A stretch of 64,000 nt of DNA from Acidobacteriota bacterium (GTDB lineage: Bacteria; Acidobacteriota; Terriglobia; Acidiferrales; UBA7541). Below the pieces are notes generated by a model that saw only the letters and a list, made by a program, of their open reading frames with translations, had not been told where the DNA came from and searched no databases. This document shows, piece after piece, positions 32,514 to 37,857 of this stretch. Positions within the stretch are counted from its first letter, which is position 1, and every line of letters starts with the position of its first letter. The position numbers were made by a program, and so were the translations under genes. The DNA lies in assembly GCA_013289585.1 (NCBI GenBank), contig JABCZR010000024.1, forward strand, positions 1 through 64,000. Direction: 5' to 3'.

Positions 32514-33350
32514 ATGCCTCCAGCACCTCAACAGCAGCCCGAACGCCACCCGATTCCGGGCGTAAAAAATCTCGTCGCGGTGGCCAGCGGCAAAGGTGGC
32601 GTGGGCAAAACCACCGTCGCCGTGAACCTTGCGTTGGCGCTTGCAAAGCTCGGCCACAAAGTCGGCTTGCTCGACGCCGACGTTTACGGGCCGAACGTTC
32701 CCATCATGCTCGGCACCACGCAGCAGCCGGAAGCCACGCAGGACAAGCACATCATCCCCGTGCAATCGCAGGGCGTGAAAATGATTTCCATGGGCCTGCT
32801 GAATCCCGGCGACAAACCCATGATCTGGCGCGGGCCGATGCTGCACAGCGTGATCACGCAGTTTCTGCGCAGCGTGGAGTGGGGTGAGCTGGATTATTTG
32901 ATCATCGATCTGCCGCCGGGCACCGGCGATGTGCAGTTGACGCTCATTCAAACCGTCGCTGTCACCGGCGCCGTCGTGGTCACCACGCCATCGACCGTCG
33001 CGCTTGCCGACGTTCGCAAAGCCATCGAAATGTTCCGCCAGGTGAATGTCGAAGTGCTCGGCGTGGTCGAAAACATGAGCTCGTTCGTCTGCCCACATTG
33101 CAACCAGCCGATTGATATTTTTGGCCACGGCGAAGGCGCGAAGACCGCACTGGCGTATGGCGTGCCCGTGCTCGGCGAGATCGAAATCGATCCGCGCATT
33201 CGAATCGGCGGCGATACCGGCAAGCCCGTCGCCGCGCTCGGTGAAGCAGGCGCGGGAGCCAAAAGTCTCTACGCCGTCGCGCGCGCTGTTACTGCGCGCC
33301 TCGCCGAAGTTGCCGGCACCGCCGCCGGCCCTTCAATCCAAATCGACTAA
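32514..33350 (+). CDS. mrp: Mrp/ApbC iron-sulfur carrier ATPase
   Basis: 278 residues. The deviant Walker A is ASGKGGVGKTTVAVNLA, switch regions follow, and CPHC (in SSFVCPHCNQP) binds a [4Fe-4S] cluster at the dimer interface. It lacks the N-terminal MIP18/DUF59 domain of longer Mrp proteins. It transfers clusters to apo-proteins in the cytoplasm. It starts 32 bp after secA with an AAGGAAA site, so the two are cotranscribed or nearly so, and it converges with a small Cys-rich gene. Confidence 0.94.
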   Translation: MPPAPQQQPERHPIPGVKNLVAVASGKGGVGKTTVAVNLALALAKLGHKVGLLDADVYGPNVPIMLGTTQQPEATQDKHIIPVQSQGVKMISMGLLNPGDKPMIWRGPMLHSVITQFLRSVEWGELDYLIIDLPPGTGDVQLTLIQTVAVTGAVVVTTPSTVALADVRKAIEMFRQVNVEVLGVVENMSSFVCPHCNQPIDIFGHGEGAKTALAYGVPVLGEIEIDPRIRIGGDTGKPVAALGEAGAGAKSLYAVARAVTARLAEVAGTAAGPSIQID

Positions 33351-33354
33351 AACC

Positions 33355-33534
33355 TTACGCTTCTTTTGTTTCGCGGAGCTTCTGTATCGCCGCGATCTTT
33401 GCAAGAAGACAATTCCGGCAAAGGCATGCCGTTGCATCGGCCGGTATCGGGACGCGCGGCAGGTCCGCGCACCAGCAACCGCTTTCCGGCTGGCAAGTCA
33501 TCGCGGCTCCGCATTGTGCGCACTTGGTTTCCAC
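33355..33534 (-). CDS. Small Cys-rich CWC-domain protein
   Basis: About 59 residues with the pattern CAQCGAAMTC, GCWC, then CLCRNC, eight Cys in the order of the Cys_rich_CWC family, presumed zinc-binding. The start is uncertain. GTG at 33534 (VETKCAQCG) begins the domain; the open frame reaches further left, to 33732, but that part reads through two hairpin repeats and is unlikely to be coding. It ends 4 bp from mrp, convergent. Role unknown. Confidence 0.68.
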   Translation of the reverse strand: METKCAQCGAAMTCQPESGCWCADLPRVPIPADATACLCRNCLLAKIAAIQKLRETKEA

Positions 33535-33602
33535 GGAGTGATGATGGCGCAGATGCAGTGCGGCGTCCAGCGCTGCTGGTTTTAGGGGTGGCAGACGGAA
33601 AA

Positions 33603-33620
33603 GCGGCAGCAAGCTGCCGC
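33603..33620. repeat. Hairpin repeat GCGGCAGC-AA-GCTGCCGC
   Basis: A perfect palindrome with 8-bp arms and two central bases, in the spacer between the CWC gene and the gamma carbonic anhydrase gene. No T-run follows. Confidence 0.6.
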
Positions 33621-33713
33621 ACTCCCAAATAAGAAACGGCAGCCGCGCTTCCTTGTCAGTCGGGCGACACGGATGATATGTTGACGTGACTCGGCATACT
33701 TGGGTGCTTGAAT

Positions 33714-33735
33714 GGGGCGCAATATATTGCACCCC
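33714..33735. repeat. Hairpin repeat GGGGCGCAATA/TATTGCACCCC
   Basis: A near-perfect 22-bp palindrome (one mismatched pair), 65 bp before the gamma carbonic anhydrase start. Together with the hairpin at 33603 it fills a 265-bp non-coding gap. Confidence 0.6.
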
Positions 33736-33799
33736 TACAATGAGATAGCGGCGCCAGTGCCCTAAACGCGCTCAAGCGGATCAAAGAAAAAGGACTCCA

Positions 33800-34333
33800 T
33801 TGGCTCGACAGCCGGACATTCGACCTTACAAAGGCAAGCGCCCGCAGATCGCGGCTTCGGCTTATATTGACGCCGCCGCGGTCATCATCGGCGACGTAGT
33901 CATCGGCGAGGATTCGAGCGTTTGGCCGTGCACGGTGATTCGCGGCGACGTGCACTACATTCGCATCGGCGCGCGCACCAATATTCAGGACGGCTCGATC
34001 TGCCACGTCATGCGCGACGAGTGTCCGCTGGTCCTCGGCGACAACGTGACCGTCGGCCATTCCGTGACGCTGCATGGCTGCACCATCGAGTCGCGTTGCC
34101 TCATCGGCATGGGCGCGATCATCCTGAACGGCGCGACGATCGGTACCGGCAGCATCGTTGCCGCGGGCACGCTCATCACCGAGCGCACCGTGATTCCCGC
34201 GGGCAGCCTGGTGATGGGCTCGCCGGGGAAAGTGAAGCGCCTGCTCACGGGGATCGATCAGGCATCGATTGACGCGTACGCGCAGCGCTACGTTGAGTAC
34301 AAGAACATTTATCGCGAGGAGCCAGCCGAGTGA
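33800..34333 (+). CDS. Gamma-type carbonic anhydrase family protein
   Basis: 177 residues of left-handed beta helix with hexapeptide repeats (IIGDVVIGEDSSVWPCTVI and onward). The zinc-binding His residues of the family appear in ICHVMRD and GHSVTLHGC (VTVGHSVTLHG). Family members are trimeric; only some have carbonic anhydrase activity, others act in CoA metabolism. The start is TTG at 33800. The stop overlaps the hisS start (GTGA), so the genes are translationally coupled. Confidence 0.9.
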   Translation: MARQPDIRPYKGKRPQIAASAYIDAAAVIIGDVVIGEDSSVWPCTVIRGDVHYIRIGARTNIQDGSICHVMRDECPLVLGDNVTVGHSVTLHGCTIESRCLIGMGAIILNGATIGTGSIVAAGTLITERTVIPAGSLVMGSPGKVKRLLTGIDQASIDAYAQRYVEYKNIYREEPAE

Positions 34334-35952
34334 GCGAAGGCGCAGCAAAAAAAGAAGAGAAGCCGCGCAAGTTCCAAGCCATCCGCGGCACGCGTGACCT
34401 TTTGCCGCCCGAGACGTCGCTATGGAACCGTGTCGAGCAAACCGCGCACGAAGTATTCGCTACGTTCGGCTTCGGCGAAATCCGACTCCCCATTTTTGAG
34501 CCCACCGAGCTTTTCGCGCGATCCATCGGCATTGACACAGATGTCGTCTCGAAAGAGATGTACGAATTTGAAGATCACCCGTCCAAGGAATTGGCAGCCC
34601 TCAGAACACTGCTTCTCGAAAAGAAGCCAATAATCGACGACCCAAAATTCTTCTGGTCCTACGAGCTCAAGGTCGAGGAGTTCGTGGTGAGACTTCAAGA
34701 CGCCATGAACCGAGGAGAGGTCCCTAAAACGCCAGAGAATGAGCGCGTCGTTAAGGACTTGGGCCCCCTCCTAAACGCGATGGCCTTTGCCAGACAGGAG
34801 TATGACAAGGGAAGTGACCAGACACATGTTGCCCGTTTCGAGTTATATGCGAAACACATTAAGGACCGTCTGAACGCTGTGCAAGCGCAGGCTATTCAAG
34901 CTTATCTGGGTGACGACATCACTTTGCGCCCCGAAGCCACGGCCAGTGTGTGCCGGGCCTATATCGAGCACGGCATGCAGCAATTGCCGCAGCCTGTAAA
35001 GCTGTACTACATGGGGCCGATGTTCCGGCGCGAGCGGCCGCAGAAGGGACGTTACCGCCAGTTCTACCAGATTGGCGCGGAAGTGCTGGGCGGGAGCGAT
35101 GCGCCGGCGATTGACGCCGAAGTGATCGAAATGGTCATGACATTTTTCGACCGGCTCGAATTGCAGGGCGCGCGGCTGGATCTTAATTCGATCGGCTGCC
35201 GCGAATGCCGCCCGAAATACGTCGAGCTTCTTCGCGCGGAGCTTTTAAAAGTGAAGGACAAGCTCGGGCCAGACAGCCAGCGGCGCATCGAGACGAATCC
35301 CCTGCGCGTGCTGGATTCGAAGCTGGAGAGCGAGCAGGGCATCATCGCCACACTACCGCGCATCGCGGACCACCTCTGCGAAGCATGCGCCAAGCACTAC
35401 GCGGAGGTGAAACATCAGCTTCAACTTCGCGGCGTCATGTACCGCGAGAATTGGAGGCTCGTCCGCGGGCTCGACTATTACATGCGTACCACGTTTGAAA
35501 TTACGGCGCAGGGCCTGGGTTCGCAGAACGCCGTTTGCGGCGGGGGACGCTATGACGGGCTGGTAGAATTGCTCGGCGGGCCGCCGACCAAAGGCATCGG
35601 CTTCGCCATCGGCGAAGATCGTTTGATCTTATCGCTGCAAGAGAGCGGGAAAATGCCCGCGCAGCAAGGCCGCGACATTTACATCGCCTGGATGGGCGAG
35701 AAAGCGCAGGCCACCGCTGTTCGCGCGGCAAAAGGCTTGCGTAGAGCGGGGTTCAGCGTCGAACTGCCGCCCGTGGAGCAAAAATTCGGCAAAGCCCTCG
35801 GCCACGCCGACAAACTCGGCGCGAAATATGCGCTCATTCTCGGCGATAATGAAGTTGCCGAAGGCTTGTGGACGCTGAAAACACTTGCCGACGGATCGCA
35901 GGCAAAGTTCACCGAGGCCGATTTGCTCGAGCATTTGCGAAAGAAAGAGTAG
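34330..35952 (+). CDS. hisS: Histidyl-tRNA synthetase with a large in-frame insert
   Basis: 540 residues, about 110 longer than usual. The core is normal: motif 1 region (GFGEIRLPIFEPTELFARSI in part), motif 2 (MFRRERPQKGRYRQF), the histidine motifs LVRGLDYYMRTTFE and GGGRYDGL, motif 3 (GIGFAIGEDRLIL) and the anticodon domain. Residues ~83-195 interrupt the usual FEDR...ITLRPE junction: the gene goes from MYEFED to ITLRPEATAS through ~113 extra residues. There are no stops inside, so the full-length protein is probably made. The GTG start overlaps the upstream stop (GTGA). It makes His-tRNA in the cytoplasm. Confidence 0.95.
   Translation: MSEGAAKKEEKPRKFQAIRGTRDLLPPETSLWNRVEQTAHEVFATFGFGEIRLPIFEPTELFARSIGIDTDVVSKEMYEFEDHPSKELAALRTLLLEKKPIIDDPKFFWSYELKVEEFVVRLQDAMNRGEVPKTPENERVVKDLGPLLNAMAFARQEYDKGSDQTHVARFELYAKHIKDRLNAVQAQAIQAYLGDDITLRPEATASVCRAYIEHGMQQLPQPVKLYYMGPMFRRERPQKGRYRQFYQIGAEVLGGSDAPAIDAEVIEMVMTFFDRLELQGARLDLNSIGCRECRPKYVELLRAELLKVKDKLGPDSQRRIETNPLRVLDSKLESEQGIIATLPRIADHLCEACAKHYAEVKHQLQLRGVMYRENWRLVRGLDYYMRTTFEITAQGLGSQNAVCGGGRYDGLVELLGGPPTKGIGFAIGEDRLILSLQESGKMPAQQGRDIYIAWMGEKAQATAVRAAKGLRRAGFSVELPPVEQKFGKALGHADKLGAKYALILGDNEVAEGLWTLKTLADGSQAKFTEADLLEHLRKKE
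34576..34914 (+). other. In-frame insert of ~113 codons within hisS
   Basis: It begins after FED (HPSKELAALRTLLLEKKP) and ends before ITLRPEATAS. It is mostly helical and charged, with no recognised domain, no intein ends (no Cys/Ser at the start or HN at the end) and no homing-endonuclease motif. AGA, AGG and ATA codons occur several times, unlike the flanking hisS sequence, and it is visibly less GC-rich. It sits in the loop between motifs 1 and 2. Confidence 0.7.
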
Positions 35953-36022
35953 GACAGACATTCCTGTCTGTCCTCGACATGTCAGGTTGGATCGGCAGAG
36001 GACAGGCAAGAATGCCTGTCCT
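35951..36022. repeat. Pair of 24-bp REP-like hairpins between hisS and aspS
   Basis: Hairpin one: AGGACAGACA and TGTCTGTCCT with loop TTCC (35951-35974), beginning inside the hisS stop codon. Hairpin two: AGGACAGGCA and TGCCTGTCCT with loop AGAA (35999-36022). Both have perfect 10-bp arms. A related hairpin precedes cmk at 41032-41051. Lacking U-runs, they may stabilise or attenuate the transcript. Confidence 0.75.
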
Positions 36023-36066
36023 ACTGAAGCGCGAATAGAATTTGGCCTGTGTGAGGAGACGAAGAC

Positions 36067-37857
36067 TTGCTGGACTTTCTGGGAAACTTGAAGCGCACGC
36101 ACTACTGCGGCGAATTGCGCGCCACGGACGACGGCCGCGACGCACTGGTGATGGGCTGGGTGGCGAAGCGGCGCGACCTGGGCAATCTGCTTTTCCTCGA
36201 CATCCGCGACCGCACTGGCATCGTTCAGGTGGTTTTCAACAAAGAGACGCAGCCCGAGGCGCACGCCAAAGCCGAGCAGGCCCGCAGCGAATTCGTAGTC
36301 GCCGTCGAAGGCAAGGTCATCAAGCGGCAGAAGGCCAATCCGGAATTGGCCAGCGGCGAAGTCGAACTGGTCGCGTCCAAGTTGCACATTCTCAACAACG
36401 CCAAGACGCCGCCGTTCCCCATCGAAGACGAAATCAACGCCGCGGAAGAAACGCGCCTGCGCTTTCGCTATCTCGATCTGCGTCGCCCGAAGCCGCATCG
36501 CAATCTGGCGCTGCGCCATCGCATCATTCTTGAAATTCGCAAAGTGATGGACGAACTGGGCTTTATTGAAGTGGAGACGCCTATGCTTACGCGCTCGACG
36601 CCGGAGGGCGCGCGCGATTTTCTTGTGCCCAGCCGCGTTCATCACGGGCAGTTCTACGCGCTGCCGCAATCGCCGCAGATTTTCAAGCAGATTTTGATGA
36701 TCGCCGGGCTGGACAAATACTTTCAGATCGTGAAATGTTTTCGCGACGAAGACCAGCGCGCCGACCGCCAGCTCGAATTCACGCAGCTCGACCTGGAGAT
36801 GTCTTTCCCGCGCCAGGAAGACATTTTTCATGTGATCGAGCAGGTGATGGTGCGTGCTTGCGCCGTCGCGGGTGTCAAGGCCTCGGCCCCGTTTCCGCAC
36901 CTGCTCTACAAGGATTGCATTCGAAAGTACGGCAGCGACAAGCCGGACATGCGTTTTGGCATGGAACTGCACGAGGTAACGCATTGCTTTCCGGAGGAAG
37001 CGAAACAAAAGCTGCAGATCGAAGGCAATGTTTTTGCATTTGCTGCGCCCGGAGCCGCGGGCTATTCGCGCAAGCAACTTGACGAATTGACGGAAAAGGC
37101 TAAATCGCTGCACGCTCGCGGCGCCTACTTCGTGAAAGTCACGCCGGAAGGGCTGACCTCGACCGTCGAGAAATTGATCGGCCCGGAAAACGTAAAGAAA
37201 CTCGCCGAGGCGTGCGGCGCAAAGGCCGCCGATCTCGTCGTCGCCGTCTCTGCCAAGGAACAGATTAAAGGAACAGAAGCCGCCGCGTTGATCGCGGGCC
37301 AATTGCGTTTGCATCTCGGCGAAGCGCTCGGCGTCATTGACAAATCGCAGTGGAAATTCCTGTGGCTCACAGGCTTTCCGCTGTTCGAATGGAGCGAAGC
37401 GGACAAAACCTGGGTCAGCGCGCAACATCCGTTCACCGGCATCGTGGATGAAGACCTGGAAAAACTGGAATCCGCGCCGTGGGAAGTGCGTTCGAAGGGC
37501 TATGACCTCGTCCTCAACGGCTACGAGCTCGGCTCCGGCAGCATTCGAATCCACCGCCAGGACATTCAGGAGCGCCTGTTCAAAGCGCTCGGCCTCACTG
37601 AAGAACAGTTGCGCCGCCGCTTCGGCTTCTTTCTCGACGCGCTGACCTACGGCACGCCCCCGCATGGTGGCATTGCGCTCGGTATTGACCGCGTGGTCAT
37701 GCTCCTCGCCGGCGAAAAATCGATTCGCGAAGTGATTGCTTTCGCGAAAACCACTGCCGCGCAAGATTTGATGGCAGAATCACCCTCGAACGTGGACATA
37801 GAACAGCTCGATCAATTGGGGATCGCTATTCAAGAAAAGAAGAAAGCGGCTGAATGA
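36067..37857 (+). CDS. aspS: Aspartyl-tRNA synthetase
   Basis: 596 residues, the bacterial class IIb form. The N-terminal OB anticodon domain (VMGWVAKRRDLGNLLFLDIR in part) is followed by motif 2 (CFRDEDQRADRQLEFTQLDLE in part), the ~100-residue GAD domain inserted between motifs 2 and 3, and motif 3 (GIALGIDRVVMLLAG). The start is TTG 36067. No GatCAB genes lie in the window, so whether it is discriminating cannot be told. It lies 114 bp behind hisS, with two hairpins in the gap. Confidence 0.97.
   Translation: MLDFLGNLKRTHYCGELRATDDGRDALVMGWVAKRRDLGNLLFLDIRDRTGIVQVVFNKETQPEAHAKAEQARSEFVVAVEGKVIKRQKANPELASGEVELVASKLHILNNAKTPPFPIEDEINAAEETRLRFRYLDLRRPKPHRNLALRHRIILEIRKVMDELGFIEVETPMLTRSTPEGARDFLVPSRVHHGQFYALPQSPQIFKQILMIAGLDKYFQIVKCFRDEDQRADRQLEFTQLDLEMSFPRQEDIFHVIEQVMVRACAVAGVKASAPFPHLLYKDCIRKYGSDKPDMRFGMELHEVTHCFPEEAKQKLQIEGNVFAFAAPGAAGYSRKQLDELTEKAKSLHARGAYFVKVTPEGLTSTVEKLIGPENVKKLAEACGAKAADLVVAVSAKEQIKGTEAAALIAGQLRLHLGEALGVIDKSQWKFLWLTGFPLFEWSEADKTWVSAQHPFTGIVDEDLEKLESAPWEVRSKGYDLVLNGYELGSGSIRIHRQDIQERLFKALGLTEEQLRRRFGFFLDALTYGTPPHGGIALGIDRVVMLLAGEKSIREVIAFAKTTAAQDLMAESPSNVDIEQLDQLGIAIQEKKKAAE

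Follow-up and report, generated by a model that had tools for sequence, protein, structure and literature searches.

Interchangeable hypervariable domains at a single site of histidyl-tRNA synthetase in Ca. Acidoferrales

In the order Ca. Acidoferrales (Acidobacteriota gp2), a group of soil bacteria, one site of histidyl-tRNA synthetase (HisRS) is filled by alternative small domains, here called alleles. Which long allele a gene carries is almost independent of the rest of its sequence, and one pair of genomes at least has exchanged a short insert within a recombination tract of approximately 200 bp. The best explanation, to which we assign a probability of about 0.4, is that diversifying selection, possibly exerted by proteins attacking HisRS, acts on the insert as an exchangeable domain for recognition or shielding. 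The gene from which the analysis started lies in a 64,000-nucleotide stretch of DNA from an Acidobacteriota bacterium (the window).

The hisS gene of the window (Table 1) is assigned to HisRS by its score against TIGR00442 (462.8 bits, cut-off 286.75), and the predicted fold of its product is similar to that of a solved HisRS (Z 40.4 with 1adj_A, 415 aligned residues, rmsd 4.2). Residues invariant in an alignment of 38 HisRS, in which the window protein is row 1, include L199, R200, P201 and E202, as well as R379, G380, D382, Y383, Y384, G405, G406, R407 and Y408. One HisRS copy per genome was found in 17 congeneric genomes (E 1e-8). The insertion site is the tip of the hairpin joining MYEFED and ITLRPE; the distance from KEMY to LRPE is 120 residues in the window protein, compared with 10-11 (10/12) or 17 (2/12) in outgroups from the class.

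An earlier note on this DNA had described an in-frame insert passing from MYEFED to ITLRPEATAS, and such an insert is indeed present there in an open frame; its length, put at 113 residues (34576-34914), is nearer to 109. The lower GC content and unusual codon choice that it reported are borne out. The GC content of the insert is 0.51-0.53 versus 0.56-0.62 alongside (240-base windows), AGA or AGG account for three of seven Arg codons versus two of 34 in the flanks, and ATA for one of four Ile codons versus none of 22, counts that are small for this gene alone, the effect being strong over 55 inserts of the order. The helical character that it had read from the sequence agrees with the four helices given by AlphaFold2, and its statement that the ends (DHPSKE and YLGDD) are not those of an intein holds. 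The checks that it proposed on the insert alone yielded no known family in profile searches and a four-helix bundle in structure prediction.

Table 1. Features of the window hisS gene and of its insert
Feature	Position	Strand	Basis or remark
hisS, histidyl-tRNA synthetase, 540 aa, GTG start	34330..35952	+	open throughout; TIGR00442
First hairpin strand, MYEFED, residues 77-82	34558..34575	+	AlphaFold2 strand 78-82
Hypervariable insert domain, ~109 extra residues versus insert-free relatives	34582..34908	+	length comparison
Insert helix 1, residues 86-97	34585..34620	+	AlphaFold2 model
Insert helix 2, residues 105-128	34642..34713	+	AlphaFold2 model
Helix 2/3 turn and helix 3 start, GxIPxTxxN, residues 129-137	34714..34740	+	best conserved internal stretch
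Insert helix 3, residues 135-160	34732..34809	+	AlphaFold2 model
Insert helix 4, residues 165-190	34822..34899	+	AlphaFold2 model
Second hairpin strand and LRPEATAS, residues 199-206	34924..34947	+	L199, R200, P201 and E202 invariant in 38 HisRS

The AlphaFold2 model of the full protein, built with 38 sequences, has a mean pLDDT of 88, and the block means over residues 81-200 are 78-94, except for 63 at residues 161-170. When modelled alone with six sequences, the insert reached a pLDDT of 80 with nearly identical helices, the last one being split. The long form is predicted to be a four-helix bundle in the one case modelled. Across 40 long inserts, pairwise identity is 0.29 and 0.39 at the two junctions and 0.33 at the turn between helices 2 and 3 (residues 129-134), and it is lowest in the loops between helices 1 and 2 (0.08) and helices 3 and 4 (0.07); the alignment columns of helix 1 are filled to 64% on average. 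Assuming an up-down bundle, the conserved turn and the junctions would form a base near the HisRS core and the variable loops would form the tip. Foldseek searches of PDB and BFVD with the insert alone gave no match at E <=0.001, and the best PDB matches were four-helix bundles and designed binders (FAT domain E 0.063, TLNRD1 E 0.16).

With hairpin residues included, the net charge is -2 to -10 in all 40 long inserts, and that of insert-free hairpins is mostly -2 to -3. After these acidic residues were trimmed, 33 of the 40 remained net negative, five were neutral and two positive, and the description of the insert as uniformly acidic was therefore dropped; the long domain is only mostly and weakly acidic. 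Of 13 hand-picked alignable pairs, most with pS near saturation, 12 have an insert pN/pS ratio of 0.15-0.55 and the last, of 21 residues, one of 0.98. In the C-terminal flanks of the same 13 pairs the ratio is 0.16-0.56, the insert values being similar to or up to ~3 times those of the flanks. Values of pN/pS below 1 inside alleles are no direct sign of positive selection within an allele.

The order was surveyed in 95 genomes, of which 87 had a hisS match and 83 could be parsed; of the other four, two are truncated by contig ends (G471 and G039), one has no anchor motif and keeps an insert end (G488), and the last is G042. The number of residues between KEMY and LRPE in the 83 genes is 10-17 in 19, 19-26 in eight, 33-79 in 16 and 80-127 in 40; an insert, of 19 to 127 residues, is thus present in 64 of the 83 and absent from 19. 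Each of the three families read from the order includes genes with an insert (f1; f2, 59 residues in G037; f3, 107 residues in G038). A tree built from the flanks (88 rows including 12 outgroups, with seven partial or edge rows left out) requires at least 27 changes for the four length states and 13 for presence or absence alone. Sister rows may differ greatly, as in G453 (124 residues) and G455 (40), or G465 (126) and G464 (11), both pairs being starred, and in the weakly supported (93/44) pair of G011 (44) and G017 (105). Residues 64-73 of HisRS, just upstream of the insert, are dimorphic in the genus, reading either RSIGxDTDVV or RAVGGETDIV. The insert-bearing hisS of G031 (L016) reads LGPEATAS, with Gly in place of the Arg that is otherwise invariant in 38 HisRS, in a frame that is otherwise open; this may be a sequencing error or a real change.

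Outside Acidoferrales, 39 of 68 named loci were parsed, the other 29 being missed by the motif pattern, and in all 39 the distance from the TDVV/TDIV-type motif to the end of LRPExTA is 28 residues, which means that these genes have no insert. A class-wide search covered 151 genomes, 32 of them from the order, and gave a match in 148. Among the matches listed, G267, of family f11, is the sole genome from outside the order in which the match starts only after the insert site, in the manner of long-insert genes, without truncation at a contig end; it has a 118-residue insert at the HisRS hairpin (L250:2497-2850), which shows no relation to the long class by hhalign. The hairpins of 19 f11 genes, chosen partly for long match spans, measure 17 residues in 16, 42 and 45 in two, and 118 in G267. 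In another family of the class, too, this site has therefore been occupied, independently but rarely. The full-length matches listed in a search of 297 phylum genomes span ~1185-1308 nt and have no large insert; among 30 low-scoring genomes the hairpin was read in four.

When HisRS was compared across relatives, as the earlier note had advised, the insert proved to be lineage-specific. The note had allowed that one and the same insert might turn out to be frequent across the phylum and inherited from its ancestor, which would have spoken against its reading. This is not the case: insertion at this site is frequent in the order, but the inserts have no common sequence. What escaped it is that nearly every species has a different insert, or none, at this hairpin. 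Its proposal of an acquired domain is only partly right, in that alleles are common to several genera and were swapped by recombination in at least one pair, and its alternative, a mobile in-frame element in the sense of a transposon, is not supported by the copy searches described below.

Close relatives whose flanks are ~90% identical have inserts that are unalignable or ~30% identical, and similar inserts recur in other genera. For G000 and G027, its nearest flank relative among the long-insert genes, similarity is 0.94 in the flanks and 0.06 in the insert; for G006 and G498, from different genera, it is 0.67 and 0.51, respectively. The rank tests cover 37 of the 40 long inserts (without L021, L091 and L095) or 36 (also without L020). 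In none of the 36 cases is the most similar insert that of the nearest flank relative; ranked by flanks, this best partner stands at a median of 16.5 of 35, and it belongs to the same genus in 13 of 32. For five control segments from these proteins the median rank was 2, with rank 1 in 12-16 of 36 and the same genus in 31-32 of 32. The best-partner similarity is >=0.20 in 21 of 37 long inserts, 11 of these partnerships crossing genera and none joining nearest relatives, and it is below 0.20, which is near noise, in the other 16. For the shorter inserts (n=15) the numbers are few and the result is less clear, with rank 1 in three and the same genus in nine of 13, compared with six and 11 of 13 for the control.

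The exchanged short insert is a 45-residue form shared by G028 and G008. Third-position differences between the two genes are 8/68 in the tract, 140/298 downstream and 29/48 upstream (Fisher 3e-9, an optimistic value since the tract was delimited by eye). The tract starts ~21 codons ahead of the insert and ends inside LRPE, and pS is 0.13 in the insert versus 0.64 in the flanks. An insert pS far below that of the flanks was found in two of 72 pairs, this one and G478/G480, a 20-residue pair with little sequence behind the drop. The third-largest drop, in G475/G487, is 0.14, and in the median of the 72 pairs the insert pS is 0.12 above that of the flanks. Most of the sharing of alleles is therefore either long-standing or a product of rapid vertical change, recent exchange being shown for one pair.

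The codon signature of the window gene extends over the order. GC3 is lower than in the gene's own flanks in all 55 inserts of at least 40 residues (mean 0.56 versus 0.73). In these inserts AGA and AGG make up 100 of 330 Arg codons, versus 132 of 1912 in the flanks (Fisher 3e-29), and ATA makes up 56 of 255 Ile codons, versus 38 of 1171 (Fisher 5e-21). Recurrent acquisition and fast turnover under weak codon selection fit this signature alike.

Variation of this kind appears to be particular to HisRS. The 17 congeneric genomes each contain four genes with PF00587, hisS among them, and the core spans of the other three, assigned by length to ThrRS, SerRS and ProRS, are 630-633, 528-543 and 504-510 nt, respectively. 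Among 11 genes at and around hisS, for each of which 7 to 21 genomes were compared, the largest internal block of low identity is that of HisRS (132 columns holding 20-129 residues, 21 genomes); there is one such block of 83 columns in SecA and there are two of 42-49 in MutL, lying in what we take to be linker regions, and none occurs in the remaining eight. Among 138 genes from ~264 kb, aligned with their counterparts in up to three relatives (299 pairs), two have blocks of more than 100 columns in two relatives, namely HisRS and a frame of 479 aa that is unannotated and in which a membrane segment is visible by eye; one further gene has such a block in one relative. A segmentally variable gene contains a highly variable segment of at least 70 residues within a conserved protein, and HisRS, with its 132-column block in a conserved core across 21 genomes, fits this description.

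Searches placed the insert in no known family and in no gene other than hisS. The window insert alone has no NCBIfam match, and in Pfam only a weak one to the TipAS antibiotic-recognition domain (PF07739; 15 bits versus a cut-off of 23.8, E 0.035), given by one of the 40 long inserts, an assignment that was rejected. An intein was rejected on the ends and the lack of a nuclease or intein match, and an intron or other RNA element on a search of positions 33000-36500, which gave three matches, all far under the family gathering score and none within the insert. The 40 long inserts, searched against known families at E up to 0.1, gave best values of 0.0073 in Pfam, 0.0042 in PADLOC and 0.012 in PHROGs, nearly every family being matched by a single member; the single-insert PADLOC and PHROG matches are at chance level. 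For 16 short inserts the best Pfam value was E 0.018. Among PDB sequences the profile of the long inserts reached at best E 0.018, with mostly designed helical proteins on top. The long class, the short class and the insert of G267 are mutually unrelated by hhalign.

A dispersed in-frame element like the palindromic elements of Rickettsia, which would have copies in several genes of a genome, was rejected. Within its own genome the window insert has no convincing second copy (two matches, E 0.6-0.8). The profile of the 40 long inserts gave nothing outside hisS in the 95 genomes of the order but one match at E=0.01; the 40 genomes that it matched are those used to build it, and only the absence elsewhere is informative. 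In 396 genomes of the phylum it found its own genome and one partial match in G291 (E 9e-5), to a protein that is MCE/MlaD-like and coiled-coil by eye, a match judged to be chance. As a single query in the same 396 genomes the window insert found itself and eight matches at E 0.011-0.088. A phage or plasmid origin was discarded: the window insert has no match at E 1 in 50,697 phage records and no close relative in IMG/VR, in a search that reaches close relatives only, and four plasmid matches (E 0.06-0.07, 42% of the query) are at chance level. The full HisRS gave one 32% match in viral contigs. A nested gene was also discarded as a general feature, since 8 of 36 long inserts have another frame that stays open from one end of the insert to the other. 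No direct repeats of at least 12 bases and no inverted pair were found at the insert edges.

As a recognition or shield surface, the domain would use its conserved base as an anchor, and its varied tip would alter how foreign proteins see HisRS. Putative antagonists that bind HisRS near the hairpin, such as delivered toxins or the proteins with which phages take over a host, would give rare alleles an advantage; many alleles would then be retained by frequency-dependent selection, and homologous recombination in the conserved flanks could spread them as cassettes with catalysis intact. This explanation is favoured because fold and base are kept and an exposed tip is varied in one essential enzyme, because sharing across lineages is out of step with the gene, and because the insert is absent from about a quarter of genes. 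It draws support from the number of length-state changes, the lack of any nearest relative among best partners, the G028/G008 tract, the pN/pS values in 12 of 13 pairs, the mostly confident predicted fold, and the specificity to HisRS as far as tested, the core spans of the other three synthetases being nearly constant in 17 genomes. It is weakened by the 19 insert-free genes, by pN/pS below 1 within alleles at up to ~3 times the C-flank values and with pS near saturation, by the drop in pS in only two of 72 pairs, by the 16 of 37 best-partner similarities near noise, and by the weak acidity. The phage T4 valyl-tRNA synthetase modifier binds a host synthetase and is a precedent for the kind of antagonist needed by a shield, but its target is ValRS; the match of one of the 40 inserts to its PHROGs family (E=0.088) is at chance level and is no evidence of homology. 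It is possible, if doubtful, that the HisRS of Ca. Acidoferrales is a conflict locus, with a pool of 'mask' domains kept diverse by frequency-dependent selection from putative phage or competitor attackers; as part of the same tentative picture, the locus might represent an immune-evasion polymorphism inside the translation machinery. No such description was found among the titles and abstract openings of literature on inserted or hypervariable HisRS, on synthetase arms races, or on HisRS with phages or toxins.

The main rival, neutral turnover of a tolerant loop, appears somewhat unlikely; it supposes that the hairpin tip takes insertions and that gain, loss, fast divergence and ordinary recombination proceed without selection for diversity. 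It readily explains the codon signature, low GC3 and rare codons in all 55 inserts being expected for fast-turning sequence under weak codon selection, and the broad range of lengths, which includes 19-26-residue forms that are disordered by eye; the insert-free genes and the divergence of inserts, equal to that of the flanks or greater in most of the 72 alignable pairs, also agree with it. Constraint, the base and specificity to HisRS are not as easily explained. Purely vertical drift would make nearest relatives the most alike, which was observed in none of 36 cases, the low pN/pS, conserved base and mostly confident fold argue for a functional domain, and three further class II synthetases show no such variation in their core regions. 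A folded domain with a constrained base and a variable tip could also be a lineage-specific adaptor that docks HisRS to a fast-changing partner (a regulator, a complex or a localisation factor) tracked by the alleles, and inserted synthetase domains often carry added functions. However, relatives with ~90% identical HisRS flanks differ in the domain or have none, so the partner would have to change equally fast, and we consider an adaptor improbable.

Two further readings have very little probability. A selfish mobile element entering coding sequence would account for the in-frame position, for codon usage unlike that of the host gene and for recurrent gain and loss, but the searches for copies, edge repeats and nucleases or inteins went against it, and it stands refuted as things are, barring copies at other loci. 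An extension aiding the binding of tRNA-His or substrate would resemble the insertion of eukaryote-type GlyRS between motifs 1 and 2, which lies near the acceptor stem; the domain is, however, hypervariable among species that should share tRNA-His, missing from 19 of 83 genes, and in its long forms mostly weakly acidic instead of basic. A tRNA-binding role is unlikely for a domain that is dispensable, hypervariable and mostly acidic.

Synthetases are commonly seen as slow-evolving housekeeping enzymes. That an inner domain of HisRS should vary among close relatives and move as a cassette implies that this enzyme is under a pressure that is strong, specific and shifting, and near-complete divergence between close relatives together with trading between lineages is a pattern usually found in molecules under evolutionary conflict. 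In type I restriction HsdS subunits and the tips of polymorphic toxins, variable domains are exchanged by recombination in conserved flanks; the HisRS insert is likewise exchanged via conserved flanks and decoupled from the species tree, but those are defence or conflict proteins, whereas HisRS is a housekeeping enzyme and carries the domain within its catalytic core. The INS domain of ProRS and insertion 1 of eukaryote-type GlyRS are similarly extra domains embedded in a class II core between motifs; unlike the HisRS insert, they are conserved families, with editing or tRNA roles. The nearest published concept met is that of segmentally variable genes (PLoS Biol 2004, PMC387263), where variable segments form a mosaic in conserved sequence, the likeness being a variable segment inside a conserved protein. 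That paper suggests diversifying selection from fast-evolving interaction partners and includes aminoacyl-tRNA synthetases, with the ProRS insertion, among its examples, the variable part being linked to tRNA recognition or to a YbaK-similar ProRS insertion (PMC387263). The HisRS described here differs from those synthetases in that one of its hairpins carries unrelated domains that substitute for one another among close relatives. If the pressure comes from an antagonist, it would point to an undescribed class of phage or competitor proteins attacking HisRS, and the allele series would provide ready reagents for finding such attackers. If the variation is neutral, the hairpin would be a striking fold-tolerant hot spot and a natural insertion point for engineering.

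The neighbourhood of the window hisS has two minor features. Its GTG start overlaps by four bases (34330-34333) the stop of an upstream ORF (33800-34333) that is gamma-carbonic-anhydrase-like by eye, and this overlap suggests possible translational coupling. The gap between hisS and aspS (35953-36020) contains two copies, in opposite orientation, of an imperfect palindrome-like 20-mer (two matches at <=3 mismatches, none expected), which look like a small intergenic repeat pair.
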